Origin: Tragulus kanchil
Lineage: Eukaryota; Chordata; Mammalia; Artiodactyla; Tragulidae
NCBI GenBank assembly: GCA_022376925.1
Contig: JAIOJX010000005.1
Location: 158,239,501 to 158,303,500 of the forward strand
DNA: 64,000 nucleotides
Direction of reading: 5' to 3'
Position 1 is the stretch's first letter, and each line of letters opens with the position of its first letter. The position numbers and the translations under genes were made by a program. The notes beneath the pieces were generated by a model, which saw only the letters and a program-made list of their open reading frames with translations, was not told where the DNA came from and ran no database searches. Positions 624 to 64,000 of this stretch are shown piece by piece.

Positions 624-967
624 TGATCACCCATCTCTTCTGTCATTTTATGTGTTATAAATTGGATTCCTCATCTCTTTTATGTCCCCCTTTTGAAGAT
701 GTTATACAATTGGGTTTTCAATAAGAACTGGTTGACTGACTACTGACAAGGTGCATATCATAATGATTTTGTATTTATTTAAATACACTCATGAGATCCT
801 CTCCCAGTAGCCTTGCATTAAGTCATGAACATCTTTTACCTTTTCGTCTTTTTAATTGTTTGTTTCCATTAGTTGGCAGGTTTCAATAATTTAAATGTTT
901 TTAATCTTGTATTTCAGCACTTAGATGCTACAGCAGTGAGCGTTTTACAAACTAATAAATAAATACT

Positions 968-1099
968 ATGTTAGAAGAACAAGAGCCAGAGCAAGAAGGC
1001 GAGTGCCCGCCAGCCGTCTCTGAACCAGGGAGCCCGAGCTTACGGTTTCATGTTCATAGACACAACCTGAACCTGCTGCGCCTCCCATTTTTGAGTTAA
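968..1099 (+). other. Unproven 43-codon open frame
   Basis: An ATG at 968 opens a 43-residue frame ending in TAA at 1097-1099. The start is Glu/Gln/Pro-rich and the end is Arg/His/Leu-rich. A pyrimidine-rich tract ending in CAG at 917 resembles a splice acceptor. I recognise no family. The only change between this copy and its duplicate is a synonymous Glu codon (gag/gaa). The frame is short enough to arise by chance, and nothing shows that it is expressed. Confidence 0.12.
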
Positions 1100-1504
1100 G
1101 TCTTAAGAGATGTAGTAGAAGATACACAGATGATATAAGAAGCCTTTCCTTTTGACCTAATGTACTCCAGAGCAGTCCTCAAGAGAAGATCCCATTAACT
1201 TCAAGAATTGTTGCCTGCTTTTTTTAGCGAAACAAAGTATGTAACATTATAAATGAAATTCTATAGGATCTGCCTCTTGATAGCATTCTATCTAGTCAGG
1301 GAATCAGAGGACAGATTTTTGCTGTCCTCTGGAAAAGACTAGGGCATGAGATTCTCTGGTGTCTCCCTGTGAGTCTGCTCCTGGGTAGGGTGGTTTCTTT
1401 TTTTCTCAGTGTCCTTTCTGCTACAGTTGGAACTTTCAGGATAATTGCTCATTTTCTGTCATAGATGGTTCTGGTGTTTTTTGTTCTGGTTTGGTTTTGA
1501 TTAT

Positions 1505-3235: not shown

Positions 3236-3404
3236 TTGGCTGATTTTATAAAATTACTTTTTATTCTTTTTTCACATGATCTGTTCCTGGACCTTTTAAC
3301 CTTATTTCATTTTTTAATCACTGATTCTCTTTCTCCGCTGTCTTCTAAATTGCTGAACCCTAAATCTGTGTCAATACAGTAAAACACTAACATTGGGAAT
3401 TTTT

Positions 3405-3744
3405 TTTTTTTTAAGATTTATTTATTTATTTATTTTGGGCGAGGGTCGGGTTGGGGAGGGAGGGGAGCAGGCGGGCCACTTCTATTGGTCTTTCATTTCT
3501 CTATGTTCATCCATCTTTGTTCTTTGGCTCCTGTGGTCCTCCCACTGCGGTGGCATCTGTCGTTGCAGAGCGCCGGCTCTGGGCACACGTGTTCCAGAGC
3601 TCCAGCTCGGTAATTGGACACATCGGTCCAGCTGCTCCGTGGCACGGCTGGGGCACGCCTGGGATCTTCCCAGGCCAGGGATCGAACCGGCGCCCCTTGC
3701 ACTGCAAGGTGGTGTCCTTACCCACTGGACCACCAGGGGAAGCC
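3405..3744 (-). repeat. Unnamed tRNA-derived SINE, long form, with TSD
   Basis: On the reverse strand it begins at a gggcttcccctggtgg-type head with A-box TGGTCCAGTGG and B-box GGTTCGATCCC. The body, about 250 bp, is GC-rich and ends in a (AAAT)n tail. An 18-base target-site duplication beginning ctaacattggg flanks it at 3387-3404 and 3745-3762 (the T-run end is ambiguous). The body is not that of Bov-tA, Bov-A2 or the CHR elements I know. Open frames of up to 124 codons read across it are spurious. Confidence 0.85.
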
Positions 3745-3762
3745 CTAACATTGGGAATTTTT

Positions 3763-4039: not shown

Positions 4040-4362
4040 GTTGTTGTTGTTCAATCACTAAGTCATGTTACTCTTTGTGACTCCCATGGACTGCAGCACA
4101 CCAGGTTCCCCTGGCCTTCACTGTTGCTCAGATTCATGTCCATTGAGTCGGTGCTGCTATCTAACCAGCTTTTACTCTGCTGCTTCCCCTTTCACCTTTC
4201 AGGGTCTTTTCCAGTGAGTTGGCTCTTCACATCCAGTGGCCTGAGTATTGAAGCATCAGCTTCAGCATCATCCTTCTAATGAATACTCAGGGTTGATTTC
4301 CTTTAGGATGAACTGGTTTGATCTCCTTGCATTCCAAGGGACTCTCAAGAGTCTTCTGCAGC
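4040..4362 (-). repeat. BovB LINE (RTE clade) 3' fragment
   Basis: This is the reverse complement of the BovB 3' region, recognisable from the ggactgcagcacaccagg, gtccattgagtcggtg and ccaagggactctcaagagtc blocks. It is 5' truncated and diverged. BovB is a ruminant hallmark acquired by horizontal transfer (established knowledge). Confidence 0.85.
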
Positions 4363-4370: not shown

Positions 4371-4650
4371 TGTTGTTGTTCAGTTGCTAAGTTGTGTCCA
4401 ACTCTTTGCGTCCTCATGAAATGCAGCACACCAGGCTTCCCTGTCCTTCGCTGTGTCCCTGGGTTTGCTCAAGTACATGTCCATTGAGTCAGTCCGTTGG
4501 TTGATGCCATCCAACCATCTCATTCTCTTTTGCCCCTCTTTGCCCTCAGTCCTTCCCAGCGTCAAGGGCTTTTCCAATGAGTCGTCCATCAGGTGGCTAA
4601 AGTATTGGAGCCTCAGCTTTAGCATCAGTCCTTCCAATGAATATGGGAAG
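4371..4650 (-). repeat. BovB LINE 3' fragment with decayed ORF tail
   Basis: A second BovB fragment lies directly beside the first and covers an overlapping part of the element, so it is a separate insertion or a tandem rearrangement. The reverse strand still encodes the C-terminal part of the BovB polyprotein, with RMRWLDGI, a DREAW motif and a KSWTQLS ending. It lacks all catalytic domains and is a dead fragment. Confidence 0.88.
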
Positions 4651-8008: not shown

Positions 8009-8122
8009 GGGAATTCTCTGGTGATTCACTGGTTAGGACTCTGCACTCTCACTGCAGAGGACCTGAGTTCAGTCTCTAGTCAGGGAACCAAGATCCTGTA
8101 TGCTGCAGCCAAAAATAAAAGA
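8009..8122 (+). repeat. CHR-1-type short SINE
   Basis: The head gggaattctctggtgattca and the agtcagggaaccaagatcct block, followed by gcagccaaaaataaaa, match the short CHR element. It lies 27 bases after the CHR-2 element in the same orientation. Confidence 0.85.
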
Positions 8123-9375: not shown

Positions 9376-11560
9376 TGAGACTGCTGGTGAGAAGTTCCTG
9401 GTTAGGGTCAAGTTTTAGTTTCCAGGATGGGGCTGCCGCTCTTGGTGGTCGCGTAGGTCCTGTGATGAAGTATTACCATTTCTCGTGAGTGTGCCGTGGT
9501 AATAGGCGGGCTGCTGCCCTCAGACCCCCTCCCTGCACCTTTGGAGGGCTGTGCTTACCGCTCCTTCTTGAAGCCTGAGCCAGTTAATGGGCTCTGGTTG
9601 TGTAATTGTCACTTCTAAATGTTCAGTGGAGATTTTATTTTTCTCTTTTCATACTTAATTCCATTTTTCTACACAGCATTTGACAGCAATGAGAAAAGCT
9701 AGTCATGTTCTTTCCTGTGTTTTTTCCCCAAAGGGCAAACATTGCTGTTAATTTTGTCAAGAGTTTTAGAACTTGAATGATAGAGAAACATGTACCTGTA
9801 AAAGGAATGGCAAAAATGAAAAAATAACAATCCAGCTGAAACACAGAGGACAAGTCTGGTATGAGACAGACCCCCTGTGTTCATGATGAGGTGTCAGAGT
9901 CTGCCTGTGGAGGCATCTGTCTGTCAGACCAGACTTCTAGATACTTGTTCATCAAGCTTTTGTTTGTGGGATTATGAGTAGCAGGAGTTGAGGAATATTT
10001 TAGAATAAAGAACGTCCAGAGGGAGTCAGGCAGTCCTCCCTGCACATCTAGAGAAGGGATTCACCTTTGTGTCTTGCAGAAAGCTTTTAAGGGAAAATTT
10101 ACTTCTATGTTGGAAGCCACATGGAAAGTAGATTCTGATGCTCAGTTTGTGAGCTGAGTTGTAAGTCTGGAACTGTCTGCAGGTTATGTGGACCGCTAGT
10201 GGGGAAGCTCCAGGCCATGTGACAGGCGATGACTCTGGAAAGAAACAGGAGGGAGAAGCTGAGAGCTCTCTTTCCTCTCCCTATCTTAACCCAGGAGCTG
10301 TGTTATTCCGTGAGGATGATAATTGTTCCATGCCTGTTATCAAAAAAGAAGCGTACCTCAATAGAACTTTATCAAAAGTCCTATTGGACACAATGGATGG
10401 ACACACTTAAAATGTACATAGTCAGAAAGATGTTTTCTTTTTTGGAAATAGCTTTCATATTAATATTTTGAGACTGCTGGTGAGAAGTTCCTGGTTAGGG
10501 TCAAGTTTTAGTTTCCAGGATGGGGCTGCCGCTCTTGGTGGTCGCGTAGGTCCTGTGATGAAGTATTACCATTTCTCGTGAGTGTGCCGTGGTAATAGGC
10601 GGGCTGCTGCCCTCAGACCCCCTCCCTGCACCTTTGGAGGGCTGTGCTTACCGCTCCTTCTTGAAGCCTGAGCCAGTTAATGGGCTCTGGTTGTGTAATT
10701 GTCACTTCTAAATGTTCAGTGGAGATTTTTTTTTTCTCTTTTCATACTTAATTCCATTTTTCTACACAGCATTTGACAGCAATGAGAAAAGCTAGTCATG
10801 TTCTTTCCTGTGTTTTTTCCCCAAAGGGCAAACATTGCTGTTAATTTTGTCAAGAGTTTTAGAACTTGAATGATAGAGAAACATGTACCTGTAAAAGGAA
10901 TGGCAAAAATGAAAAAATAACAATCCAGCTGAAACACAGAGGACAAGTCTGGTATGAGACAGACCCCCTGTGTTCATGATGAGGTGTCAGAGTCTGCCTG
11001 TGGAGGCATCTGTCTGTCAGACCAGACTTCGAGATACTTGTTCATCAAGCTTTTGTTTGTGGGATTATGAGTAGCAGGAGTTGAGGAATATTTTAGAATA
11101 AAGAACGTCCAGAGGGAGTCAGGCAGTCCTCCCTGCACATCTAGAGAAGGGATTCACCTTTGTGTCTTGCAGAAAGCTTTTAAGGGAAAATTTACTTCTA
11201 TGTTGGAAGCCACATGGAAAGTAGATTCTGATGCTCAGTTTGTGAGCTGAGTTGTAAGTCTGGAACTGTCTGCAGGTTATGTGGACCGCTAGTGGGGAAG
11301 CTCCAGGCCATGTGACAGGCGATGACTCTGGAAAGAAACAGGAGGGAGAAGCTGAGAGCTCTCTTTCCTCTCCCTATCTTAACCCAGGAGCTGTGTTATT
11401 CCGTGAGGATGATAATTGTTCCATGCCTGTTATCAAAAAAGAAGCGTACCTCAATAGAACTTTATCAAAAGTCCTATTGGACACAATGGATGGACACACT
11501 TAAAATGTACATAGTCAGAAAGATGTTTTCTTTTTTGGAAATAGCTTTCATATTAATATT
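9376..11560 (+). repeat. Tandem duplication 2 (period 1093)
   Basis: Copy 1 is about 9376-10467 and copy 2 about 10469-11560. The copies are almost identical; I saw a T-run length change near 10727 and one substitution (tctag/tcgag near 11031). The unit itself is unassigned unique DNA. The last 350 bases recur a third time through duplication 3. Confidence 0.95.
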
Positions 11561-13346
11561 GAATTCCAAATGACAAAGAGAAAGACCACCTAGTCCAACT
11601 ACCATCATCTCTCTCCTCTCTGCTTTGCTCACTGACCTCCCTTTGCCTGACATTCTCTCTGTACCCCTTCTCAAGCTGACCTTACTTGTCGCCAGAGTGG
11701 CGTTTTCTATGCACAGCTCTTGTATTACATCTGCTTGGAATCTGTAACTGGCTTCCCATTACTCTCTAGACGAAGACCGTGATTCTTCACAGGGCCTGTA
11801 GGCCTCCACGCCAGGCCCCTCCTGCCTCTCCAGACTTAGTCTGCATTCTCCTCCCTCTGCTCCCCAAATTCCCATCAGTCTCACTTCCTCTCATCTCACA
11901 CCCCCAGTCGTGCTCTTTCCTCCCACAGGGCCTTTGGCCCTGCCAGTGACTTCTTTTCGGATCCCACTCCCCTGTCCTTGGGCTGGTTAATCTTTATTAC
12001 GCTTTTGTTCTCAGCTCAAACCCTCTTTGAAACTCTGCCCTGACCACCTGTCACCACCATTGCATTGCTGTTCCCATTCCCGGAACTGAGCTTCTGCCCT
12101 TCACAAGTGCTACTACAGTTTGCACGGACACTGTGCTTAGCAAGGTTGTTACATTCCTGCTGCTGTTTCCCCGCTAGAGTGGCAGCACCACTCTAGTGGG
12201 GAATTTGGTCTGCTTCACCTGCTCGTAGCTGTGGTTGCCTAGCAAGGACCTAGCACATGCACCCTTTGCCCCCCGGCTGATAAAACTTCTATGTGACATG
12301 GAAAGTAGATTCTGATGCTCAGTTTGTGAGCTGAGTTGTAAGTCTGGAACTGTCTGCAGGTTATGTGGACCGCTAGTGGGGAAGCTCCAGGCCATGTGAC
12401 AGGCGATGACTCTGGAAAGAAACAGGAGGGAGAAGCTGAGAGCTCTCTTTCCTCTCCCTATCTTAACCCAGGAGCTGTGTTATTCCGTGAGGATGATAAT
12501 TGTTCCATGCCTGTTATCAAAAAAGAAGCGTACCTCAATAGAACTTTATCAAAAGTCCTATTGGACACAATGGATGGACACACTTAAAATGTACATAGTC
12601 AGAAAGATGTTTTCTTTTTTGGAAATAGCTTTCATATTAATACTGAATTCCAAATGACAAAGAGAAAGACCACCTAGTCCAACTACCATCATCTCTCTCC
12701 TCTCTGCTTTGCTCACTGACCTCCCTCTGCCTGACATTCTCTCTGTACCCCTTCTCAAGCTGACCTTACTTGTCGCCAGAGTGGCGTTTTCTATGCACAG
12801 CTCTTGTATTACATCTGCTTGGAATCTGTAACTGGCTTCCCATTACTCTCTAGACGAAGACCGTGATTCTTCACAGGGCCTGTAGGCCTCCACGCCAGGC
12901 CCCTCCTGCCTCTCCAGACTTAGTCTGCATTCTCCTCCCTCTGCTCCCCAAATTCCCATCAGTCTCACTTCCTCTCATCTCACACCCCCAGTCGTGCTCT
13001 TTCCTCCCACAGGGCCTTTGGCCCTGCCAGTGACTTCTTTTCGGATCCCACTCCCCTGTCCTTGGGCTGGTTAATCTTTATTACGCTTTTGTTCTCAGCT
13101 CAAACCCTCTTTGAAACTCTGCCCTGACCACCTGTCACCACCATTGCATTGCTGTTCCCATTCCCGGAACTGAGCTTCTGCCCTTCACAAGTGCTACTAC
13201 AGTTTGCACGGACACTGTGCTTAGCAAGGTTGTTACATTCCTGCTGCTGTTTCCCCGCTAGAGTGGCAGCACCACTCTAGTGGGGAATTTGGTCTGCTTC
13301 ACCTGCTCGTAGCTGTGGTTGCCTAGCAAGGACCTAGCACATGCAC
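11212..13346 (+). repeat. Tandem duplication 3 (period 1084)
   Basis: Copy 1 is about 11212-12262 and copy 2 about 12296-13346. A 33-base spacer (12263-12295) separates them. The spacer ends in acttctatgt and otherwise resembles 11148-11211 with many bases missing. The start overlaps duplication 2, giving three copies of about 350 bases (10119, 11212 and 12296). Confidence 0.95.
11575..12262 (+). repeat. L2 LINE 3' region
   Basis: The order of blocks (cctctctgctttgctcactg, cagggcctttggccctgcc, tcagctcaaaccctctttga, ctgccctgaccacctgtca) is that of an L2 3' end in sense orientation. It is old and diverged, with no coding remnant. Confidence 0.8.
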
Positions 13347-13753: not shown

Positions 13754-13779
13754 TGAGTGCTTTAAAAACTGTTTGCCAG

Positions 13780-14124
13780 GGCTTCCCCTGGTGGTCCAGT
13801 GCGTAAGGACACCGCCTTGCAGTGCAAGGGGCGCCGGTTCGATCCCTGGCCTGGGAAGATCCCAGGCGTGCCCCAGCCGTGCCACGGAGCTGCTGGACTG
13901 ATGTGTCCAATGACCGAGCCGGAGTTCTGGAGCGCATGCGCCCAGAGCCGGCGCTCTGCGACGACAGACGCCACCGCGATGGGAGGCCCGCAGGAGCCAA
14001 AGAACAAAGAAGGATGAAAACAGAGAAATGAAAGACCAATAGAAGTGGCCTGCCTGCTCCCCTCCCTCCCCAACCCGACCCCCGCCCAAAATAAATAAAT
14101 AAATAAATCTTTAAAAAAAAAAAC
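13780..14124 (+). repeat. Unnamed tRNA-derived SINE, long form, perfect TSD
   Basis: The head holds the A-box TGGTCCAGTGC-type (one mismatch at its end) and a perfect B-box GGTTCGATCCC. The body carries the ccaggcgtgccccagccgtg segment seen only in the long form. The tail is (AAAT)n followed by an A-run. A perfect 13-base target-site duplication, aactgtttgccag, lies at 13767-13779 and 14125-14137, which proves insertion by retrotransposition. The 157-codon antisense frame across this element and the truncated neighbour is an artefact of its GC-rich body. Confidence 0.9.
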
Positions 14125-14989: not shown

Positions 14990-15425
14990 GGTTCAATTTT
15001 TGCAGCCAAGTTTGTCCAATTCTTCGTGGCCCCATGGGCTGCAGAATCTCTCTTTCACCCACCATCTCCTGGATTTTGCTCAAGTACACATCTGTTGAGT
15101 TGGTGATGCCATCCAACCATCTCGTCCTTTGTTGCCCTCTTCTCCGTCTGCCTTCAGTCTTCCCCAGCATCAGGGTCTTTTTCAGTGAGTTGGCTCTTCA
15201 TATCAGGTGGCCAAAGTTTTGGAGCTTCAGCTTTAGCATCAGTCCTTGCAGTGAATATTCACAGTTGAGTTCCTTTAGGATTGACTGGTTTGATCTCCTT
15301 GCAGTCCAAGGGACTCTCAAGAGTCTTCTTTGGCATCATAGTTTGAAGGCATCAGTTCTTTTACGCTCAGTCTTCTTTATGGCCCAGCTCCATTTGTGAC
15401 TACTGGAAAGACCATAGCTGTCACT
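14990..15425 (-). repeat. BovB LINE 3' fragment
   Basis: The reverse strand shows a degraded polyprotein tail (RTRWLDGI) and the usual BovB 3' blocks ending with gaccactgg-like sequence. The unnamed SINE lies immediately downstream. Confidence 0.85.
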
Positions 15426-15452
15426 GTATGGACCTTTTCCATTCATATTTTC

Positions 15453-15699
15453 TTTTTGGGGGGCCACTTCTTTTGATCTTTCATTTTTTTATCTTTGTTC
15501 TTTGGCCTGTGTGGGCCTCCTATCACAGTGACCTCTGTCGCTGCAGAGCACCAGCTCAGGGCACATGTGGTCCAGAGCTCCAGCTTGGTAGTTGGACACA
15601 TGGGTCCAGCCACTCCACGGCACGTGGGATCTTCCCAGGCCAGGGATCGAACTAGCGCCCCTTGCACTACAAGGACCCACTGGACCACCAGGGAAGCCC
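15453..15699 (-). repeat. Unnamed tRNA-derived SINE, short form, with TSD
   Basis: On the reverse strand it has the tRNA head with a B-box variant (agttcgatccc) and goes from cccacgtgccgtgg straight into the body. It lacks the extra segment of the long form and ends at aaagaagtggccccccaaaa. A 14-base duplication (ccattcatattttc) lies at 15439-15452 and 15700-15713. Confidence 0.85.
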
Positions 15700-16176
15700 C
15701 CATTCATATTTTCCATTAAATGTTGGTCCCTTTGAGAATAGCTTCTCCAGCTCCATTTGTCTAAAACTGGGTTCATCGTCATTTTTCCCCGTAAAGCCGC
15801 TCCTCCCGTGATGTCCCTGCTTGTGCTGGTGGTGATACCGCTTCTCCTGGGCATGTCTTACCCCTCTGACTCCTTCCTCTCCTTTGCCTTCCACAGCCAT
15901 GCAGGTACCATGCCTTTTGTTTTTCACCATTATTCTTTTATTTCTATTCCCTGTGTTGCCTCCATCTTAATTCAGACCCTCATACCTCTCTCCCAGAATA
16001 TTATATTGGCCTTAGTACACTCCTCAGTCTATACTCCATTTGGGTCTGTTGCTGTTTTGGTGTCTGGAACACAGTTGCAGGGTTGTTCTGGCTGTGGTTC
16101 CTTGTTTGCCTGTGTAGGCACCTCCAGGGGTCAACTGAGAAAACCCTCAGATCCTTGCCAGGGTCATGTGTTCTTC

Positions 16177-16597
16177 GCCAAGTTTGTCCAGTTCTTCGTG
16201 GCCCCATGGGCTGCAGAATCTCTCTTTCCCCCACCATCTCCTGGATTTTGCTCAAGTACACATCTGTTGAGTTGGTGATGCCATCCAACCATCTCGTCCT
16301 TTGTTGCCCTCTTCTCCGTCTGCCTTCAGTCTTCCCCAGCATCAGGGTCTTTTTCAGTGAGTTGGCTCTTCATATCAGGTGGCCAAAGTTTTGGAGCTTC
16401 AGCTTTAGCATCAGTCCTTGCAGTGAATATTCACAGTTGAGTTCCTTTAGGATTGACTGGTTTGATCTCCTTGCAGTCCAAGGGACTCTCAAGAGTCTTC
16501 TTTGGCATCATAGTTTGAAGGCATCAGTTCTTTTACGCTCAGTCTTCTTTATGGCCCAGCTCCATTTGTGACTACTGGAAAGACCATAGCTGTCACT
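16177..16597 (-). repeat. BovB fragment, duplicated copy
   Basis: The second copy of the BovB fragment at 15005-15425, carried by duplication 4. Confidence 0.85.
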
Positions 16598-16624
16598 GTA
16601 TGGACCTTTTCCATTCATATTTTC

Positions 16625-16871
16625 TTTTTGGGGGGCCACTTCTTTTGATCTTTCATTTTTTTATCTTTGTTCTTTGGCCTGTGTGGGCCTCCTATCACAG
16701 TGACCTCTGTCGCTGCAGAGCACCAGCTCAGGGCACATGTGGTCCAGAGCTCCAGCTTGGTAGTTGGACACATGGGTCCAGCCACTCCACGGCACGTGGG
16801 ATCTTCCCAGGCCAGGGATCGAACTAGCGCCCCTTGCACTACAAGGACCCACTGGACCACCAGGGAAGCCC
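16625..16871 (-). repeat. Unnamed SINE short form, duplicated copy
   Basis: Same element and same flanking target-site duplication as at 15453-15699, offset 1172. It must not be counted as an independent insertion. Confidence 0.85.
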
Positions 16872-17340
16872 CCATTCATATTTTCCATTAAATGTTGGTC
16901 CCTTTGAGAATAGCTTCTCCAGCTCCATTTGTCTAAAACTGGGTTCATCGTCATTTTTCCCCGTAAAGCCGCTCCTCCCGTGATGTCCCTGCTTGTGCTG
17001 GTGGTGATACCGCTTCTCCTGGGCATGTCTTACCCCTCTGACTCCTTCCTCTCCTTTGCCTTCCACAGCCATGCAGGTACCATGCCTTTTGTTTTTCACC
17101 ATTATTCTTTTATTTCTATTCCCTGTGTTGCCTCCATCTTAATTCAGACCCTCATACCTCTCTCCCAGAATATTATATTGGCCTTAGTACACTCCCTCAG
17201 TCTATACTCCATTTGGGTCTGTTGCTGTTTTGGTGTCTGGAACACAGTTGCAGGGTTGTTCTGGCTGTGGTTCCTTGTTTGCCTGTGTAGGCACCTCCAG
17301 GGGTCAACTGAGAAAACCCTCAGATCCTTGCCTGGGTCAT

Positions 17341-18090: not shown

Positions 18091-18110
18091 GAGTGTAAAA
18101 CAGAAAACAG

Positions 18111-33760: not shown

Positions 33761-33810
33761 GTCTTTCTCTTTTTCATTCATCCAAGAAACAACAAATTGA
33801 GCACCTACTC

Positions 33811-47656: not shown

Positions 47657-49660
47657 TGGCCTGACAAAACCAAAACAGTTTCCAGCCAGAGAATTAATGA
47701 GAAAGAAAACTGGACCTAGGAGGCTGACTGAGTAAGGAGAGAACATTCAGTCCAAGGAAGAGAAAGAAGTAAAGGGGTGGCCTTGTTTTCCTTCTGAAGG
47801 AAGAGCCCGGGCAGCGCGTGGAGGAGCGTTGTGTTTCGCTAGGCCCGCGCAGAGAGCTGGCTGGGCCTCGGCGGCCGTCAGTGTCACCACACCTGGTGGC
47901 AGTCTGGGCAGACACTCACACAGACACCGCATGAGAGAGGGGGTCCATCTAGAAAGCCAGACAAACAAGTGGATTGTTTTCCCCCAATCAGGTAAAGTGC
48001 CATATAGAATTATGATCGGAATTACATTTCGTGTACGTAGAATGCGTACACATTGGGGTCTGAGAATAAAAAGTCTAGTCGAGATGGTATCAAGATGACA
48101 GTTTCCTTCATAAGGTTGCCTGGTCACAGCTTCTGTATGACTGTCCTTTTGTGAGCTTCTCATCTCAGGTTAGAGCCCCGACAGTTGGTGGCAGACATCA
48201 GGAACTTTGGGGCCTGAACATGGACCCAACCTACTTTGATGGACAGAGTATTTGGGAAAGTCTCTGTACTAGGAGGGGTGAAAGTCACGTGGAAATCGGC
48301 AAGTCCAGGGAGTTATTCTAGACCAAAGCCAGTCAGCACAGCTTAGGGGGTGTCCCAGGCAAGTGGCAGCAGGGTCCCAACCTTGGAAACTGGGAGCAGA
48401 AACAGACTGTGGGCCTAGGTGGGAAGGAAAGGTTAGGGCAGAACCCTAGGGCTTTACAGAGAGAAAAGGGCTGGATATTAATAGAATAGGGCTTGGGGCC
48501 ACTCTCAGCACGTAGCCTGTGTTTATAGGCCGGCTAGGCCTAGTTTTGAAGGCTGAGTTTGGAACCTCTCTGCACACAGTATACCCACCATTTCAATCCT
48601 CTATCCTCACTGCCACTGAAATGATCTCCCCAGTCTTCCTGATTCCCTTATTCTGAAACCTCCCTAGATTTTTTCCAACTTGTGCTTCCCACCAAGTGGA
48701 ACACAAGCTTATCTTCTTTGTGACAGAGCAGAACAGTAGGCTTCGAAGGCTGGTACCCGGGCTGTAAGCATCCCCTGGGAACATGTTAGAAACACAGATT
48801 CTGAGGCCTCACCCCAGACCTACTGAGTCAAACTTGGAGGAGGGGGCGTTCCCGCTGTGTGTGCCGGCGCCCCCTCCAGGAGGTGCCGGGGAGCTCAAGC
48901 TGGAGACCCCGCCAGAGCACGTCAGAGCTCCCAGGAGAGTCACCATGGACAGACGCCTCTTCTGGGCTGGAGCGTCACCTCTCTTCTCTCCAGAAGGTGG
49001 TGGCTTTGTCCTTCACTGACGGCGACCGTGCTAGGACCAGCGACAGCAAGGCCATTGTGTTCTGTTAGGAGCAGTGGGAATTTCACTGCCATGGCAAGTT
49101 CTTCAGAATGTGCTAAGCACTCCTTTCCTGGGGGGATGTCGTAGGGTTTAAGCGTATGCCACATAGATGTACGACTCTGCCTGTGGACGCAGGCTTGGGA
49201 GCCCCACATCCAGACCTTCACAGAGAACCTGCATTTCCCAAACTCTGCATTTCTTTAGAATTCACAGAATTCTACAGTGCATCTGCCCAGACTTCTTACA
49301 CTTGCCCATGAAAAGAGGCCCCAGCCACGGGTTCTCAGAAACATTCTGCAGAACTTGTACCAGTCTTCTGGGTCCCGGATCCACTTGCTAACAGGGCATT
49401 TTGACTCAAAGCTGGGAGTCATGATCTTTCCAGCAAACATTATGAAATAGACTGTAAGCAAATGATAAAGGCAAAGATGGCTCTCCCCAAGGTGCAGCCA
49501 GCCCATCACGGGCGCTGGTTCACAGGTGGCACAGCGTCACTTTCATTGCTAATTCAGTACAGGTCCCTCTCGTGATGTTTTGTCACATCCAGAAGAAATG
49601 TTTCCGGAAGGACATTTGTCCCCTTCAGCTATAGACTAGAGCAACAGTGCTTCATGAGAA
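47657..49660. other. Unassigned non-coding DNA
   Basis: Two kilobases without a recognisable repeat, RNA gene or exon. Frames of up to 138 codons at 47747-48163 and 48857-49144 overlap in several readings and show no domain. Confidence 0.5.
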
Positions 49661-51873
49661 CCAGAAGGTGAAAATATAGATATCCTCCCCAGAGCCTTAA
49701 AATGGATGCTGAGGGATCTTCTTCCCAGAGCAATCTCTGGGCAAGGGTCGGGATTGTTATTGGTGGTGGTTCTGGGTGGGGCAGGGAGAGGGTGGTCATT
49801 GTTATTCACTAGCGCAAAGGCTTCTCAGTATAGAGTTTCCGATCTAGAGTTCTGCTGACTTGATGGTGGGGGAGGGGGGCGGGGGGAAGAAAACAACAAC
49901 AAAAAACAGCTGAATGACAAAACGGTTTTAAACTTCATCCATTTCTACGTGTCGCATGCCCCAGAGCCCTTCAGGACTGCCCAGCAGGACCCCAGTGCCA
50001 TCCTGATGGGGGCCAAGCCACAACAGAGCAGGGAGATGAGTAAATCATCTAGCAACTTTAGGAAAATCTACTCTGGGCTTTCACACACTTGGTTGAACTT
50101 TTCAAAAATATCGACTATACCACTTGCCAGCTGTGATTACCCACAGCTCTATTTGACAGTCCTTGACAGAAAGCCAATGGGCATGCGCGACGTCACCCGG
50201 CTCTAACAGGGCCTTCGTTAGCAGCTGCTGGGGGGCGAGGGCGCTCCTGGGCCTGGCGATGATTCCTGTCCCCGGGTGCTGTGCGCTCGAGCGTGGCTGA
50301 ACCATGTGCCTAGCGAGCCCAGGCGCGGACACGAAGCCTGCCTGTACATCTCCATCACTCAGGGCACTTTTTATGTTCTGACTGCCAGAAACACAAATAA
50401 TATTCTTCCTGAGCCGCTCCAAAATACCAGTGATAGAAAATATCATAGAGAAGGTGAAGTGCCAGACAGGAAGCCCTCATGACCAAGAGCTTATTCATAA
50501 AATGAAGACAAATTTATTGCACACATTCACTGCCGGCTTTCTGAGATTAATAGCTGCTCTGTCTGATTTTAGAGCCTGACAGTGGAATCAGAAAGAGTTA
50601 CAGGTTCGTTTTCTCACCCATCCCCTTCACCCAGCAGCCTTCCTCCCCAAGAAGTAATCCGGAGAAATCAGCTGATTTAGCCTCAGCAACGGTTTTACAG
50701 TATTTTATGGCAGGAGATTTCCATGTGCCAAGGATAACTTCTAACCTTGTTGAATGCAACTTCATGGCCAGAAGGTGAAAATATAGATATCCTCCCAGAG
50801 CCTTAAAATGGATGCTGAGGGATCTTCTTCCCAGAGCAGTCTCTGGGCAAGGGTCGGGATTGTTATTGGTGGTGGTTCTGGGTGGGGCAGGGAGAGGGTG
50901 GTCATTGTTATTCACTAGCGCAAAGGCTTCTCAGTATAGAGTTTCCGATCTAGAGTTCTGCTGACTTGATGGTGGGGGGGGGGAGGGGGGCGGGGGGAAG
51001 AAAACAACAACAAAAAACAGCTGAATGACAAAACGGTTTTAAACTTCATCCATTTCTACGTGTCGCATGCCCCAGAGCCCTTCAGGACTGCCCAGCAGGA
51101 CCCCAGTGCCATCCTGATGGGGGCCAAGTCACAACAGAGCAGGGAGATGAGTAAATCATCTAGCAACTTTAGGAAAATCTACTCTGGGCTTTCACACACT
51201 TGGTTGAACTTTTCAAAAATATCGACTATACCACTTGCCAGCTGTGATTACCCACAGCTCTATTTGACAGTCCTTGACAGAAAGCCAATGGGCATGCGCG
51301 ACGTCACCCGGCTCTAACAGGGCCTTCGTTAGCAGCTGCTGGGGGGCGAGGGCGCTCCTGGGCCTGGCGATGATTCCTGTCCCCGGGTGCTGTGCGCTCG
51401 AGCGTGGCTGAACCGTGTGCCTAGCGAGCCCAGGCGCGGACACGAAGCCTGCCTGTACATCTCCATCACTCAGGGCACTTTTTATGTTCTGACTGCCAGA
51501 AACACAAATAATATTCTTCCTGAGCCGCTCCAAAATACCAGTGATAGAAAATATCATAGAGAAGGTGAAGTGCCAGACAGGAAGCCCTCATGACCAAGAG
51601 CTTATTCATAAAATGAAGACAAATTTATTGCACACATTCACTGCCGGCTTTCTGAGATTAATAGCTGCTCTGTCTGATTTTAGAGCCTGACAGTGGAATC
51701 AGAAAGAGTTACAGGTTCGTTTTCTCACCCATCCCCTTCACCCAGCAGCCTTCCTCCCCAAGAAGTAATCCGGAGAAATCAGCTGATTTAGCCTCAGCAA
51801 CGGTTTTACAGTATTTTATGGCAGGAGATTTCCGTGTGCCAAGGATAACTTCTAACCTTGTTGAATGCAACTT
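49661..51873 (+). repeat. Tandem duplication 14 (period 1107-1111)
   Basis: Copy 1 is about 49661-50762 and copy 2 about 50768-51873. Four transitions were seen (near 50020, 49733, 50306 and 50723 in copy 1 coordinates), plus homopolymer changes in a C-run and a G-run. Confidence 0.95.
49866..49887 (+). repeat. G-rich tract with quadruplex potential
   Basis: Three G-runs of five or six separated by single bases, preceded by GG. In copy 2 (50971-50998) the first run is longer, the usual length instability of homopolymers. Confidence 0.7.
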
Positions 51874-54213
51874 GACTTCTTGGCATCTGCCTTCAACTCT
51901 GCCAAAGCCTCAGGGCAAGGGGACCAGCGGGGTGACTAACTAGGGGTTGATTGAAACACAACCTGAGAGGAAGCCGTATTTTTGTGTGTCTCCTCGCTGC
52001 CTGTTTACTATTAAGGAGTAAAGAAGCCATTGTTTGATGTCTTAGCCTTGGGGGCATGAACGGAATTCAAAGCAGGTGTGAAGAAACACACTGCATCAAG
52101 ACTTAGGCCTGCCAGCGAACACAGACACGCAGCCTAGATCCCGAAACAAAGAGGAGGTGATCTCTGAGGTCTCTGGTTGGGGGAAAGCCAGGATTTGTCA
52201 CAGAGAGCAAGGTACTGCCCATGCGCTTTCTTTCTCCTTGAGCCTAACTGAAGGATCTGACTCTAACCCCTGGCCTGCTGTCCCTCTGACCTCTCTCTGA
52301 CAAGCTGAATCCTCCTACCTGGCTTCACATCTGATTGTTGTGTCAGAAATTTTCTAAATTATTCGATGTATGCACTTAGCACGTGCCCTGGTTTTCTCCT
52401 GCCCTGCCTCCTTGCCCAGCACGCGCGTGAGTTCCCCGGAGCCCGAGGCCGCCCCTCCCTCTGGCACCAGCGCCCGGCAGCCTGGCTGAAGGTGCTGAGA
52501 TGGCGGAGCGAGGTCACAGGGAGCTCAGGCTTGCCTGGGTCTCAGCCACTGTCCATCAGGAATTTGGAAAGGGGTCAGAGAAGGACTCGGGACCAGCCCC
52601 GGAGAGCAGGGGGCCCATGAGAGCACACTTGCCCCTTCTGAGTCTTATGAGAGATCTAGGCTAACAGAGGCTGGGCCCAAGGAGTCACCGACACCAAGCT
52701 GAAGGTGGCAGTGATGTTTTTCATCAAGAAAGTGTTTGAAAAGAGGAAGAGATGACTTTTAAAATTCAACTTTTTTACCCTCAGAAAAATGTCCCGGAAA
52801 GAAGATTGTTCCGTGCGCATACTGCCTTCTGTTCTTTCAGGTCCCTCACTATCTTGCTTGAGTTGAATGTGGCAGTTTATGCAAATTCCAGAAGAGGCCT
52901 TCCTGGGGCCGCCACGAACCTTGTCACCTTGTCACCTTGTCATTACAGAACTCACATTCGAGACTTCCAGCGGTAAATGGCCCTAGGCTAGTCTTGGGCG
53001 GCTCCATGCTAGGAGCTATAGTTTTCATCATAAAGAAACCCTTTTTTTTTTTTTTGGTACTCTGGAGATTTTTAAAGCTCTCCCCAGTGCCCCCAATTTC
53101 TTATCTGTTCAGTTGCAAATATCAGGGCCTAATGGCTGGAGAGGGAGAGTCTATTTTTAAGTTTTTACTGTATGTCTCCCCAGTGTGAGGTGCTGAACGA
53201 ATTTGGCACGCCATCAGATCTGGAAGCCCTGAGGGGCTGGGTGTGACTCTCAGGCATGAAGTGGGTCAGGTTAGAGTCAGGGAGTGTGCTCAGCTGTGTG
53301 GACTGTTCCCGGTTTCTGAGGTCAGGACCAGGTTTTGTTCCATACACACAGGCTTTTTCCATAAAAGCAGACTTTGTTATTAGACCTAAAATTCAGGGAG
53401 GCATTTAGTCCTCATTGTGTTCTAAATCCTTTTGGTATTTAAAACACTAGGAAATGAAACTGCCAAATTCTTAACATTTGAGAATCGGCTCCGGCCCCTG
53501 CCTGGTCCTCTCGTTTCCAGCAGGCACCTCAGAGAGGGCGCTGCGGGGGCGACGTGGAGCGGGCTCTGGGTGGTCACCGGGGCTGGAGGAGGCGCCACTG
53601 TCCTTGGAGGCAGCCGGCCTCTGCAGAGCGAGCCCGCGGTCCTCACAGGCTGAACGGAGTCACTTGAGCTGAGCGCTGTGCTTGCCTGCCGGGGACGGGA
53701 AATGCTCTGGGGAGCAGCAGCCGCTCTGCCCTCCCGCATTCCTCCAGAGCTGGCCGCTGGTGGAGAGCGTGGCCGCGCCGCCAGCTTCTCAGCCTTTCAG
53801 AGGAGGCCCGGGCCCAGGCGATGATTGTGCTCCAGGCAAATTTCGGTAAAATTTCCAAGAGCCTGAGCTGGGCACTGAGAGGGCAAAAGTAGGAATATCC
53901 CTGATGAGCAGCCAGGAGTGAATCAAGGTATCTGGAGCCTGTGCAGGGCCCCGAGGGAGGAGAAGGGAGTCGTCCATCACCCCGTTTCAAGCTCCCATAG
54001 CTCTCCCCACAGGCACCGCCTAGCTTGGCCCAGTCTGTTCTGGAAGGGAGCGTCGCATCGTGTGAAACCCCAACCGCCTGGAGAGCCCCTGCTTTTCTGC
54101 TCCCCTTACTTCCAGGACAGGGCCACGTCTGCACACCTCTTTACCCCGCCGAGGACAGCAGCCCACAGCCACCCCTGCTCACCACGTCGGCTGGCTTCTC
54201 ATTTGCTTGTGGG
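51874..54213. other. Unassigned; GC-rich in the second half
   Basis: No repeat family or exon recognised over 2.3 kb. A T-run lies at about 53041-53056. From 53490 to 54340 the DNA is GC- and CpG-rich, which explains the many overlapping frames there (up to 163 codons antisense at 53643-54134) without any recognisable domain. Confidence 0.5.
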
Positions 54214-56394
54214 CCAGACCGGGCCGCTCGCTGATTTCCCTTCGGCCCGTCAGCCGCTCGTGGGCCGCAGAAGCTCAGGGGGCCGTGGTGGCCCCGGCTC
54301 GGGGATGCCAGAGCCTGGGCCTCAGCCCTGCCCGCCTCCTGGAGTCAGCTCCAGCGTTGACTTCTAGGGCCGTCTGGGCGTCTGGCCTCTACAGTGGCAG
54401 CCAGGGTCCCTTTGTTAGCGCGCAGACACAGCGCCATCCAGCAGGGACCGCTTGCTGATACATGTTCATCAGAGGCGGAAAAAAGATTTTTGTTTGTGAT
54501 GTGGAATAATGAATTTTGTCTGAAGATGATGAATAACTGATATTTAGCTAATGGCTAATCCTTCAATATCAGACAAACCTGAGCCACAGTGAATTTTTAA
54601 TACAAAATTCTTATTATTGGAGCCTTCGAGAACTCCAAAGAAATGGACAAAACCTGGAGAGTTTGTGCCGGAGGACCTTCCAGTCTCCACACTGTGTCTT
54701 ACGAATTGGTTTGTTGAAATTCTTTGAGGCTCTAGATCTCTACCTTCTGAGCAAGGTGATCTTGGGTGGTAAACAATTTCTGAACCTAGTTCTTGCTCCC
54801 TTATTTGTTCATAAATCTCCTTAGAGGTGTGACCTTCGCAGCATACAGTCTTTGTACCTGAAAAGCTCAGCCATGTTGGTCAGCTTCATCAGAAAAACCA
54901 TGAAGGGAGGCTGCTGAGGAATACCTTTTGCCCTGAGCGGGCAAGAGGCGGGGTGCGGTAGGAATGGCAGGTGCCTGGCCTGGTGTTGGGGAGTGGCCGT
55001 GGGGACTCCTGACTCTGCAGAGTGGTCTGCTGAAGTCACGCTCTCCCTTGGCTGAGCCCCGGCTCTCTCTCTCCTCCTGACGGTCTCCTGGAGAAGGCAG
55101 ATAATAGGCAGGGGTAAAGGTCATTAATTATAAGATCTAAGTGTGACAGAAACCCTATTAGAAAGAACACATCTCTTTGAAAGACTTAGCAGACATTTAA
55201 AAGTTTCAACAGAGTTTAACTTTGCGAGGAAACCGTTAAACCTTGTAAGAAAGAAATGCCAGACCAAGAGGGTGCTTTGTACACAGTAATTTGATGGGCC
55301 CTTTGTAAAAACCGTGGCCCAGACCGGGCTCGCTGATTTCCCTTCCGCCCGTCAGCCGCTCGTGGGCCGCAGAAGCTCAGGGGGCCGTGGTGGCCCCGGC
55401 TCGGGGATGCCAGAGCCTGGGCCTCAGCCCTGCCCGCCTCCTGGAGTCAGCTCCAGCGTTGACTTCTAGGGCCGTCTGGGCGTCTGGCCTCTACAGTGGC
55501 AGCCAGGGTCCCTTTGTTAGCGCAGACACAGCGCCATCCAGCAGGGACCGCTTGCTGATACATGTTCATCAGAGGCGGAAAAAAGATTTTTGTTTGTGAT
55601 GTGGAATAATGAATTTTGTCTGAAGATGATGAATAACTGATATTTAGCTAATGGCTAATCCTTCAATATCAGACAAACCTGAGCCACAGTGAATTTTTAA
55701 TACAAAATTCTTATTATTGGAGCCTTGAGAACTCCAAAGAAATGGACAAAACCTGGAGAGTTTGTGCCGGAGGACCTTCCAGTCTCCACACTGTGTCTTA
55801 CGAATTGGTTTGTTGAAATTCTTTGAGGCTCTAGATCTCTACCTTCTGAGCAAGGTGATCTTGGGTGGTAAACAATTTCTGAACCTAGTTCTTGCTCCCT
55901 TATTTGTTCATAAATCTCCTTAGAGGTGTGACCTTCGCAGCATACAGTCTTTGTACCTGAAAAGCTCAGCCATGTTGGTCAGCTTCATCAGAAAAACCAT
56001 GAAGGGAGGCTGCTGAGGAATACCTTTTGCCCTGAGCGGGCAAGAGGCGGGGTGCGGTAGGAATGGCAGGTGCCTGGCCTGGTGTTGGGGAGTGGCCGTG
56101 GGGACTCCTGACTCTGCAGAGTGGTCTGCTGAAGTCACGCTCTCCCTTGGCTGAGCCCCGGCTCTCTCTCTCCTCCTGACGGTCTCCTGGAGAAGGCAGA
56201 TAATAGGCAGGGGTAAAGGTCATTAATTATAAGATCTAAGTGTGACAGAAACCCTATTAGAAAGAACACATCTCTTTGAAAGACTTAGCAGACATTTAAA
56301 AGTTTCAACAGAGTTTAACTTTGCGAGGAAACCGTTAAACCTTGTAAGAAAGAAATGCCAGACCAAGAGGGTGCTTTGTACACAGTAATTTGAT
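54214..56394 (+). repeat. Tandem duplication 15 (period 1099-1105)
   Basis: Copy 1 is about 54214-55295 and copy 2 about 55319-56394, with a 23-base spacer. The start of copy 2 lacks three bases (gggccgctc/gggctc) and two more near 55519. Confidence 0.95.
55080..55290. promoter_or_regulatory. Candidate regulatory block (present three times)
   Basis: Repeat-free DNA with ggtcattaattataagatct and cagataataggc (GATA-type). It recurs near 56179 and 57255 through duplications 15 and 16. Composition only. Confidence 0.2.
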
Positions 56395-58202
56395 TGAGAG
56401 GCCTCTCCTGTTTGCTACACCACACAGAAGCTCTTTCCCAGATGCAGACGTGTGTGTGCACATGCAGAGAAACAGACACCGGCTCCACCATCAGTTGTGT
56501 ACAAACATGAACACAGAGGCGGGAGGAAACAGAAATTTTCTCTTTTCTGCATCAGACTCAAGATCATTGAGTCTCTAAGCACAACTGCTTGCAAAGAGCG
56601 AGAGAGAAAAGCACTTGGCCCCGGAGTCTGTTTATGTGTTTGAGCCGAGGAAGCGAGTTTTGTTGCAAGGAGCTCTAAGTGAGACAGACAGAGTCAGAGA
56701 ATAAGAGAGAGAGAGATAATTATCTAAATTATGTTCGTGCTATTATCGAAGACGAATATAGTTAAAATGTAATTAAATATGACGGGCTAGCAGGATGTAA
56801 GCCAAGCTTTGGAATGCTAATCATCAATTACTGCATCCCCTTAGGGGAATCAGGGAGCACTGTATGGCAGTAGTAGGAGCGTGAGCTTGGGGGTGGGGCT
56901 GAGCAGGAAGCGCCTGGAAACAGTCCCCCTCATCTGTCTGCCCCCACCATCTCCTTCAGACGCTCCATAGTGGTCCCAGGATGCACACCTTTCTGTAGCT
57001 GCCACAGGGTTGGGCGTTCAGCTCCGCTCTTCAGAGGAGCTGGCGGAGGGTCTCGACCTTCTTTTTGAGAGGAAACGTCTCTAAAAGGGAAAATTAGGCT
57101 CTGAGCAGGGAAACAAGCCAAGGCGGGTGCGGTAGGAATGGCAGGTGCCTGGCCTGGTGTTGGGGAGTGGCCGTGGGGACTCCTGACTCTGCAGAGTGGT
57201 CTGCTGAAGTCACGCTCTCCCTTGGCTGAGCCCCGGCTCTCTCTCTCCTCCTGACGGTCTCCTGGAGAAGGCAGATAATAGGCAGGGGTAAAGGTCATTA
57301 ATTATAAGATCTAAGTGTGACAGAAACCCTATTAGAAAGAACACATCTCTTTGAAAGACTTAGCAGACATTTAAAAGTTTCAACAGAGTTTAACTTTGCG
57401 AGGAAACCGTTAAACCTTGTAAGAAAGAAATGCCAGACCAAGAGGGTGCTTTGTACACAGTAATTTGATTGACGAGGCCTCTCCTGTTTGCTACACCACA
57501 CAGAAGCTCTTTCCCAGATGCAGACGTGTGTGTGCACATGCAGAGAAACAGACACCGGCTCCACCATCAGTTGTGTACAAACATGAACACAGAGGCGGGA
57601 GGAAACAGAAATTTTCTCTTTTCTGCATCAGACTCAAGATCATTGAGTCTCTAAGCACAGCTGCTTGCAAAAGAGCGAGAGAGAAAAGCACTTGGCCCCG
57701 GAGTCTGTTTATGTGTTTGAGCCGAGGAAGCGAGTTTTGTTGCAAGGAGCTCTAAGTGAGACAGACAGAGTCAGAGAATAAGAGAGAGAGAGATAATTAT
57801 CTAAATTATGTTCGTGCTATTATCGAAGACGAATATAGTTAAAATGTAATTAAATATGACGGGCTAGCAGGATGTAAGCCAAGCTTTGGAATGCTAATCA
57901 TCAATTACTGCATCCCCTTAGGGGAATCAGGGAGCACTGTATGGCAGTAGTAGGAGCGTGAGCTTGGGGGTGGGGCTGAGCAGGAAGCGCCTGGAAACAG
58001 TCCCCCTCATCTGTCTGCCCCCACCATCTCCTTCAGACGCTCCATAGTGGTCCCAGGATGCACACCTTTCTGTAGCTGCCACAGGGTTGGAAGCGTTCAG
58101 CTCCGCTCTTCAGAGGAGCTGGCGGGAGGGTCTCGACCTTCTTTTTGAGAGGAAACGTCTCTAAAAGGGAAAATTAGGCTCTGAGCAGGGAAACAAGCCA
58201 AG
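56047..58202 (+). repeat. Tandem duplication 16 (period 1075-1080)
   Basis: Copy 1 is about 56047-57121 and copy 2 about 57122-58202, abutting. Differences are small indels (gattgag/gattgacgag; ttgggcg/ttggaagcg; a G-run). It overlaps duplication 15, so about 350 bases occur three times (54947, 56046 and 57122). Confidence 0.95.
56714..56860. promoter_or_regulatory. Candidate regulatory block with palindrome (copy at 57791)
   Basis: It starts with the perfect 12-base palindrome agataattatct (56714-56725) and continues with aatgtaattaaatatg and atgctaatcatcaattactg, dense in TAAT cores. No repeat family matches. Inference from composition. Confidence 0.25.
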
Positions 58203-59640: not shown

Positions 59641-60243
59641 GAATGGCACGAGCCCAGAATGCCCTGTAAGTCAGGGCAGTGAGTCGGCCATAAAACCCAG
59701 TTAAGCGTATTGCTAGACGAAAGCATTGACTCCCGTGCCAGATTGTTCGCTGAGGCCCGCACCAAGGAAGGCTTCAGAGTAGCCTGGCGCCAGAGGTCTG
59801 GGCCAGAGGGAGCAGCATGTGCCCGGCCAGGGGCCAGCGGGAGTGCTGCAGGGCCAGCCTCAAGGCAGTAACCAGCGGTGCAAGGGCCCCCACCTTGCCA
59901 CGTCACGGAAGACACCCTCCCCTCATATGCCTGGTCCGTCTCCCTCGCGGTGCCTCTAGACATGGCTCAAGAGGTGCGTGTGGCTCGTGGCTCATGACAG
60001 CAGGGCATCAGACTAAGAACAGCATGCTCAGAGAGACAGAGGGACAGCAAGAGCTGTGGGGTCAGCTCAAGAGGTCCATCCTTAGAGATCCGTCAGCGGT
60101 CTTCAGGCCCGGACCCTGGAGGCTCACGCAGGCCTTCAGCACCTGCCGGCTCGGCGCCACGCAGCTGGGAGGGGGTGCCGCCGCCACTGCGTATGCTCAG
60201 TTGACAGGGGAAAGCTTTAATATTCCCTCCCTTTTCCAGAATC
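59641..60243. other. Unassigned non-coding DNA
   Basis: No repeat or exon recognised. The frames on both strands (127 and 144 codons) overlap each other and have no domain. Confidence 0.5.
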
Positions 60244-62393
60244 TTTTCTGAAGGTTTGCCTTCCAGCCCTACTCCCAAAGGTTGTAAATAAAATGCTCCC
60301 CACGTACCCTTCCCAGTCCTCGTTACCATAGGCTTTTCTCCTGTTCTTGACTCCGCTTTTCTTGTTTTAAACTTAAACTTTTAAATTTTTATCAAAGATA
60401 TACATGTTCAGTTTTCAAAAGACAATACATTCAAAGAAAGTATATTTAATATGGTTTAAAAATATAAAATTACAGATGGTGATGTAATGTCTCCTTCTGA
60501 ACCATCTCTTCCTCCAAAGATGATAGTTTATGCATAAACATAGAAAAATGTGTGCATTTTCCCCATTTTTTTAACACCAGTTTTTCTGCACCTTGGCAGG
60601 CTCTCGACTTTCTCTCTCCCTGTCTCCAGCTGCACAGTCTCTCATGGTAAGGACAGAGATGTACCATAATCTGTTCAACCAGGCCCAACTGATGAGCGTT
60701 TAGGTTGGTTCGGTTCTCCTGCTGGGCAGACAGGGCTGCACTGCTGTCCCTGCGCCTGCTGTGTCCGGCTGGGAACCCAGCCAGAGTTAAAGCTTTTTGA
60801 AAAATCTCTTGTGGCTCTGCCTCCACATCACATCAGTGATTCACCGCGTCAGTGTATTAACCTGCTTTCTTCCCCTCCAGAAGCACTCAGATCTTCTTAA
60901 GTTCCTTAGGAACATGCTTTACTTTCTCCTTCACTGTAGTGGCCCCTCAGTGGTCTCTAGGAAACTTACACCCTTCATATCTGGGAAAACTTCTTGTGTT
61001 GTTTCTCCAACATGTGTCTTCTCTGCTCTTTTTTTGTGGAACATCTGCTAATTGGATAATGGACCTCTTGGTTTGGTCATCTCATTCTCTTATCCTTTTT
61101 CTTCTATTTTCTGTCTTTGTCATTTTGCTTGATCTCCTAGGAAATTTCCTCAAATTTAAGCTTCTAAGTATTTTGTCGAATTACTATTTCAGTTCATAAT
61201 TTTAATTTACAAGAACATTTTCTTGTTCTCCAAATGTTTCTTTTTCACATTATTTTATTCTTAGTTCAAGGGTGTGGTAATGTTTTCTTTTATCTTTCTA
61301 GTGGTAATGTAAATTTTTTCTGAAGGTTTGCCTTCCAGCCCTACTCCCAAAGGTTGTAAATAAAATGCTCCCCACGTACCCTTCCCAGTCCTCGTTACCA
61401 TAGGCTTTTCTCCTGTTCTTGACTCCGCTTTTCTTGTTTTAAACTTAAACTTTTAAATTTTTATCAAAGATATACATGTTCAGTTTTCAAAAGACAATAC
61501 ATTCAAAGAAAGTATATTTAATATGGTTTAAAAATATAAAATTACAGATGGTGATGTAATGTCTCCTTCTGAACCATCTCTTCCTCCAAAGATGATAGTT
61601 TATGCATAAACATAGAAAAATGTGTGCATTTTCCCCATTTTTTTAACACCAGTTTTTCTGCACCTTGGCAGGCTCTCGACTTTCTCTCTCCCTGTCTCCA
61701 GCTGCACAGTCTCTCATGGTAAGGACAGAGATGTACCATAATCTGTTCAACCAGGCCCAACTGATGAGCGTTTAGGTTGGTTCGGTTCTCCTGCTGGGCA
61801 GACAGGGCTGCACTGCTGTCCCTGCGCCTGCTGTGTCCGGCTGGGAACCCAGCCAGAGTTAAAGCTTTTTGAAAAATCTCTTGTGGCTCTGCCTCCACAT
61901 CACATCAGTGATTCACCGCGTCAGTGTATTAACCTGCTTTCTTCCCCTCCAGAAGCACTCAGATCTTCTTAAGTTCCTTAGGAACATGCTTTACTTTCTC
62001 CTTCACTGTAGTGGCCCCTCAGTGGTCTCTAGGAAACTTACACCCTTCATATCTGGGAAAACTTCTTGTGTTGTTTCTCCAACATGTGTCTTCTCTGCTC
62101 TTTTTTTGTGGAACATCTGCTAATTGGATAATGGACCTCTTGGTTTGGTCATCTCATTCTCTTATCCTTTTTCTTCTATTTTCTGTCTTTGTCATTTTGC
62201 TTGATCTCCTAGGAAATTTCCTCAAATTTAAGCTTCTAAGTATTTTGTCGAATTACTATTTCAGTTCATAATTTTAATTTACAAGAACATTTTCTTGTTC
62301 TCCAAATGTTTCTTTTTCACATTATTTTATTCTTAGTTCAAGGGTGTGGTAATGTTTTCTTTTATCTTTCTAGTGGTAATGTAAATTTTTTTT
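60244..62393 (+). repeat. Tandem duplication 17 (period 1072)
   Basis: Copy 1 is about 60244-61319 and copy 2 about 61316-62391. They share ttttctg at the seam. I saw no substitutions between copies. The unit ends in the L1-like block below. Confidence 0.95.
60900..61320 (-). repeat. Probable L1/HAL1-like 3' fragment
   Basis: The blocks gtcattttgcttgatctcct, ggaaatttcctcaaatttaa and aagaacattttcttgttctc follow an old L1/HAL1-type antisense region. Further copies lie at about 61972-62460 and 63246-63570 through duplications 17 and 18. The subfamily is not resolved. Confidence 0.5.
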
Positions 62394-64000
62394 CTGGTTT
62401 TATTATGCTTACTAAGCTGTATCTGAGGTTTTTTGTTTGTTTGTTTGTTTGTTTTCTATTTGCATTTGTTCTCTGTCATTATAGAGTCTTCTGTGATCTT
62501 TTAGCTGTTAGGCACTAAGACAGTTGGCCAAAAGCTTCGTGTTTTGTGTGTGGGCAGGTTTGTGGCCTTCATTCCAGGCTGTCAGGCAGAGCGCAGGCTC
62601 TTCACTGGGGCCCTGTCCACAGACTCAGGCCCAGCCCTCTGGGCGCCGCCTGCTCCTTCTCGTGGGAATGCTCTTCAGTCCCTCACGGAGGGCTCAGCCC
62701 AGCTGTCACTTCACTGGGGAACTTTCTTAAATGTCTTATCTAAAGCCGTGCGCTCTGCTCAGGGTACTTAACCCTGCATATTTTTTCCATGCCTTCTTTA
62801 ACTCTTTCATTTGTCTCTCTCTCCTACTAGAAGGTAAGCTTCCTGAGGGCAGAGTTGAAAATGGGGTCTTCCTCATTAAGCTGTTCATAAGTGTGTGTGG
62901 AAGGAAGACTGGAGGGACAGAGGAGGAGGATCATTGTCTCTAGCTCTTTCCTTCTGGGCTGGTCACGGTCTCAGGCTCCAGGCCCTTCCTCCCCCAGGGG
63001 GTTGAGCCTGGATCACGGTGGCCTGGAAGCCACGGGTGGAAGGGGCCTGGGCATGCTGCTGGCTGGGCTCTTCCCTTCTGTGTGTTCCTTGCTCTCGGCT
63101 CCTTCAGGGTCCCACCCTCGGCTCTGCCTGGGGTCCCAGAGTCTAGATCCTCTCTGTCCAAGGACTCGAGTGGAATCCCTGTCTCCTGCAGGGGTGGAAA
63201 GGGCTCATCCCACTGTGCAAAAGGGGGGGAGCTACGTTTTAAGATCCTCTTGGTTTGGTCATCTCATTCTCTTATCCTTTTCTTCTATTTTCTGTCTTTG
63301 TCATTTTGCTTGATCTCCTAGGAAATTTCCTCAAATTTAAGCTTCTAAGTATTTTGTCGAATTACTATTTCAGTTCATAATTTTAATTTACAAGAACATT
63401 TTCTTGTTCTCCAAATGTTTCTTTTTCACATTATTTTATTCTTAGTTCAAGGGTGTGGTAATGTTTTCTTTTATCTTTCTAGTGGTAATGTAAATTTTTT
63501 TTCTGGTTTTATTATGCTTACTAAGCTGTATCTGAGGTTTTTTGTTTGTTTGTTTGTTTGTTTTCTATTTGCATTTGTTCTCTGTCATTATAGAGTCTTC
63601 TGTGATCTTTTAGCTGTTAGGCACTAAGACAGTTGGCCAAAAGCTTCGTGTTTTGTGTGTGGGCAGGTTTGTGGCCTTCATTCCAGGCTGTCAGGCAGAG
63701 CGCAGGCTCTTCACTGGGGCCCTGTCCACAGACTCAGGCCCAGCCCTCTGGGCGCCGCCTGCTCCTTCTCGTGGGAATGCTCTTCAGTCCCTCACGGAGG
63801 GCTCAGCCCAGCTGTCACTTCACTGGGGAACTTTCTTAAATGTCTTATCTAAAGCCGTGCGCTCTGCTCAGGGTACTTAACCCTGCATATTTTTTCCATG
63901 CCTTCTTTAACTCTTTCATTTGTCTCTCTCTCCTACTAGAAGGTAAGCTTCCTGAGGGCAGAGTTGAAAATGGGGTCTTCCTCATTAAGCTGTTCATAAG
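62136..64000 (+). repeat. Tandem duplication 18 (period 1109-1110), cut by window end
   Basis: Copy 1 starts at about 62136 and copy 2 at about 63246. The match still continues at 64000 (which pairs with 62891), so the end of the unit is outside the window. One T is missing from a run near 63279. About 260 bases at the start are also present at about 61064, giving three copies. 62430-62455 is a (GTTT)n stretch, repeated in copy 2. Confidence 0.93.

Follow-up and report, generated by a model that had tools for sequence, protein, structure and literature searches.

False homotype duplications are the closest described counterpart of the arrangement analysed here. In the extracts of Rhie et al. 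(2021, PMC8081667) on which we draw, they lie near contig boundaries and are about as long as a read, and a hummingbird example is attributed to a bug in FALCON. In the available part of Ko et al. (2022, PMC9516828), a gap mostly lies between the copies of a false duplication, and sometimes the copies are bridged by sequence without read support. At the level of titles and the opening lines of abstracts, a literature search returned no description of a uniform 1.1 kb tandem duplication made by an assembler. The tandem duplicator phenotype, known from certain cancers, comprises numerous tandem duplications that are unrelated in sequence but have a typical span. In the assemblers wtdbg and wtdbg2, nodes of 1024 raw bases are common to adjacent layout units, and a consensus is made for each unit before the units are joined over their overlap. 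The available part of a study that uses wtdbg2 (PMC7247394) does not mention unmerged units as a fault.

The window, a stretch of 64,000 bases of Tragulus kanchil, contains 18 direct tandem pairs. As in the false homotype duplications of the extracts cited above, what is presumably one locus is present twice in direct tandem, with errors near the block ends and a length seemingly set by the assembly data; the window differs from them in its lack of an N gap, its uniform period and its 18 recurrences in 64 kb. The pairs appear to work like homotype false duplications, both copies presumably stemming from one locus, although the published classification rests on read depth and k-mers.

The tandem pairs and their period

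Comparison of the window with itself by BLAST revealed the 18 pairs, each consisting of a copy A followed by a copy B (no strand is assigned), with identities of 98.447-99.907%. They run from base 623 to the end of the window, where pair 18 is truncated, and the duplicated stretch measures 1.05-1.16 kb per pair. An ungapped scan of shifts from 300 to 2999 gave periods of 1072-1173 across the pairs, and high identity was otherwise found only at two-period sums (2174-2273). None of 20 first-order Markov controls contained a direct pair of at least 200 bp. An earlier note on this DNA was therefore right about the 18 direct tandem duplications, their coordinates and their period of 1072 to 1173. 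Its estimate of about 20 kb of added sequence is matched by the 19,644 extra bases found here (18,889 in the 17 complete pairs and 755 in the truncated pair 18), and the window with duplicates collapsed would measure about 44,356 bases.

Pair 18 was omitted from the statistics on period, spacing, differences and seams, which use 17 of the 18 pairs. For these complete pairs, the BLAST start points give a period of 1072-1172, with a mean of 1111.1 and a standard deviation of 29.3. The coefficient of variation is 2.6% (0.026) for the period versus 62% (0.624) for the spacing between seams, which ranges from 1,753 to 9,373 bases. This range excludes the fixed overlap windows of a polisher as the source of the pairs. 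Quantised spacing of the blocks, as the mark of a fixed bin, was also rejected: the best period, 340, reached an R of 0.63, below the 95% level of the null (0.65), for the 15 of the 17 spacings that are shorter than 4 kb.

Neighbouring pairs overlap in seven cases. In six of them the self-BLAST shows 65-452 bp common to the neighbours, giving rise to stretches present three times. These cases comprise pair 2 (A 9376-10467, B 10469-11560) with pair 3 (A 11212-12262, B 12296-13346); the three successive overlaps linking pair 5 (A 18249-19358, B 19367-20468), pair 6 (A 20366-21491, B 21520-22647), pair 7 (A 22583-23734, B 23741-24898) and pair 8 (A 24448-25557, B 25556-26666); pair 15 (A 54209-55295, B 55314-56394) with pair 16 (A 56045-57122, B 57121-58202); and pair 17 (A 60240-61319, B 61312-62391) with pair 18, whose A begins at 62136 and whose B begins at 63246 and ends after 755 bases at the window end (64000). 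The seventh overlap, between pair 12 (A 43367-44449, B 44477-45548) and pair 13 (A 45531-46581, B 46610-47656), is 18 bp long (45531-45548 in self-BLAST coordinates). The blocks had earlier been described as independent and unrelated in sequence; the seven overlaps contradict the mutual independence of all blocks.

Differences between the copies

The copies differ by 41 substitutions in 18,780 aligned columns (0.22%), 26 of them transitions, and by indel events in which bases are missing from A in 20 cases and from B in 31. The missing bases lie late in A (median relative position 0.916) and early in B (0.192; Mann-Whitney p 4.3e-5), so that both sites adjoin the seam. Within 150 bp of a seam, the seam-side copy has missing bases in 27 cases and extra bases in 3 (p 8.4e-6); the corresponding ratios for the outer 100, 300 and 400 bp are 22:2, 35:8 and 39:9, with p from 8.4e-6 to 4.2e-5 over the four widths. 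Inner indels number 21 in 13,672 columns with the 150-bp cut and 3 in 5,180 middle columns with the 400-bp cut. Losses are seen, for instance, in the final 40 bp of A in pair 9 (A 33808-34930, B 34928-36054), in the initial 260 bp of B in pair 10 (A 37006-38095, B 38092-39176) and in the initial 40 bp of B in pair 12. Missing stretches of several bases occur outside homopolymers, which suggests deletion-prone long reads. The length of a Sanger read, with one read present in two contigs, was considered as the source of the 1.1 kb and set aside, since such multi-base losses would suit noisy long reads better.

The stretches present three times indicate which copy departs from the others. In all six, the first copy ends a block, the second lies inside a block and the third starts a block. 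Five of the six differences or clusters of differences mark the first or the third copy, at about 110 bp or less from its seam (four losses and one extra base), while the remaining one marks the interior second copy and falls in a T run. The border columns of threefold stretches 1-3, whose borders were misplaced, were excluded from this count. Departures therefore seem to belong mostly to block ends, and the block-end errors expected of a false homotype duplication are present both here and in the 27 versus 3 events of the outer 150 bp.

The substitutions show the opposite trend to the indels. Thirty-one of the 41 are inner ones, more than 5% of the unit length away from both ends; the other 10 fall within these terminal 5% zones. 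Twenty-four of the 31 lie at 30-60% of the unit length (p 6.3e-7), with contributions from 10 of the 17 pairs, and when pair 7 is left out the proportion is 15 of 21 (p 4e-4). Heterotype false duplication, in which both parental haplotypes are set side by side, would agree with a substitution rate that falls within the mammalian allelic range and with the predominance of transitions. Against it stand the seven pairs without any substitution in the 30-60% zone and pairs 1, 2, 3, 17 and 18, which show one or two differences each in total, and haplotype breaks at a constant 1.1 kb would be unexpected. We consider this origin highly improbable. In pair 7, nine substitutions separate the copies within about 180 bp in the middle of the unit (22946-23127), far more densely than in the other pairs; this cluster is perhaps a haplotype difference or the product of mis-mapped polishing reads.

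Seams and the origin of the duplications

Ten of the 17 seams contain 1-33 bp of filler. The filler measures 1 bp in pair 2, 6 bp in pair 7, 8 bp in pair 5 (where it is found again 5 bp before A), 9 bp in pair 4 (A 15005-16167, B 16177-17340), 18 bp in pair 15 and in pair 11 (A 40382-41477, B 41496-42594), 27 bp in pair 12, 28 bp in pairs 6 and 13, and 33 bp in pair 3. At the other seven seams, among them that of pair 14 (A 49650-50762, B 50760-51873), the copies share 2-9 bp, as any one random junction would with a probability of 0.163. Eight or nine bases are shared at two seams, those of pair 17 (8 bp) and pair 1 (9 bp; A 623-1761, B 1753-2891), and the probability of 8 or more at a random junction is 5e-5. 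Sharing of this length could reflect microhomology repair or a spurious short overlap taken by the joiner.

The filler was also considered as a noisy continuation of the flanks. When the nine fillers of at least 5 bp were compared with their flanks, none was outstanding (the lowest value being 24 of 300 random). For the eight fillers of at least 8 bp, a less strict local test, chosen after the first had failed, gave a total that 11 of 2000 random totals reached, two of the eight fillers being dominant. The first test being negative and the post hoc second one weak, neither was relied upon.

Shared bases at seven seams and filler at ten are reminiscent of polymerase-theta or template-switch joints, and would be in line with real tandem duplications, for which an unknown local mechanism would have had to act 18 times in one region, each time copying a 1.1 kb unit unrelated to the others; re-replication, or microhomology repair that proceeds by a fixed step, would be examples. 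All 18 would then have to be very young, at 98.4-99.9% identity, and uniform to 2.6%, and these 18 events, spaced 1.75-9.4 kb apart, would have to leave bases missing mostly on the seam side. Such an origin strikes us as extremely improbable, and the pairs very probably do not represent a biological feature. The earlier assertion that unrelated sequence is duplicated in steps of a set length by no known process was nonetheless too strong: the tandem duplicator phenotype has duplications of a typical length, though with longer, widely spread spans scattered over the genome, whereas the window holds 18 pairs in 64 kb with a period that varies by 2.6%.

Several features together point to unmerged consensus blocks: a constant unit length, free spacing of the seams, losses on the seam side, interior copies that mostly agree with one of the others, and the lack of any N in the 64,000 bases, and hence of a scaffold gap. 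We think it probable that the tandem pairs are an assembly artefact, in which consensus blocks overlapping by one graph node of fixed length were concatenated without being merged. A noisy long-read assembler would lay the contig as successive consensus blocks, with neighbouring blocks overlapping by a single node whose nominal length is fixed. Where the noisy block ends failed to align, as would be the case at 18 joints, the blocks would be placed end to end with the common node duplicated. The missing bases would correspond to raw consensus errors out of reach of short-read polishing, and the reads would be deletion-prone and Nanopore-like. Read pairs wholly within the repeat may have been divided between the two copies during polishing, which would let heterozygous sites differ in the middle of the unit. 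The preference of the earlier note for contig ends of about 1.1 kb left unmerged gains support from the seam-side losses, from the five of six threefold differences and from the constant period combined with a variable spacing. Fillers without a clear resemblance to the flanks, the 8-9 bp shared at two seams, the lack of clear quantisation in block length and the one threefold difference in an interior copy count against unmerged blocks.

The mean period divided by 1024 (1111/1024) is 1.085, and a raw-read node of 1024 bases would span about 1111 bases if about 8% of the bases are lost in the reads. A 1024-base node of wtdbg or wtdbg2 would fit this period, and adjacent layout units in these programs likewise share a fixed node of about 1 kb. 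The spacing in the window is not clearly quantised, and the choice of assembler is a suggestion, as nothing in the sequence names one.

A later fault would produce a similar picture if contigs with overlapping ends of about 1.1 kb were ordered in scaffolding, the gaps removed or filled, and the overlaps left unmerged. Contig ends would also be expected to show seam-side errors, and homotype duplications at contig boundaries turn tandem after scaffolding in the extracts of Rhie et al. (2021, PMC8081667). In these extracts, however, a gap lies between the copies, and the window has no N, which makes a fault in joining blocks inside a contig likelier than one in scaffolding. Moreover, the contigs of 1,753-1,819 bases that this scheme would place between some seams would be odd in a scaffolded long-read assembly. 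We therefore regard a scaffolding origin as rather unlikely.

The tandem pairs matter as a warning about assembly quality. If they are an artefact, about 31% of the window (19,644 of 64,000 bases) is false, and if the rest of the assembly is alike, counts of exons, genes and repeats would be inflated. A constant period together with seam-side losses could serve as a test for unmerged blocks that needs only the sequence.

Other content of the window

The window resembles what we take to be mammalian non-coding DNA with tRNA-derived SINEs. A Pfam search of 10 of the 26 long open reading frames gave no match at E 0.1, and a search of the window against Rfam gave none at the gathering score. ARAGORN predicted tRNA-Glu and tRNA-SeC at 8015-8090 (+) and 42734-42807 (-); as Rfam reports no tRNA at the gathering score, these calls may be SINE-derived. 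A family of dispersed repeats, about 250-350 bp long and presumably akin to a tRNA-derived SINE of even-toed ungulates, is present in both orientations at 3401-3746, 13778-14123, 15448-15700 and 18110-18372, with members 74-93% alike, and the copy at 15448-15700 has a tandem copy at 16620-16872. Further dispersed repeats, at 4199-4357 and 4464-4644 in the first part of the window, are 76-87% like 15075-15329 in pair 4 and are probably older elements.
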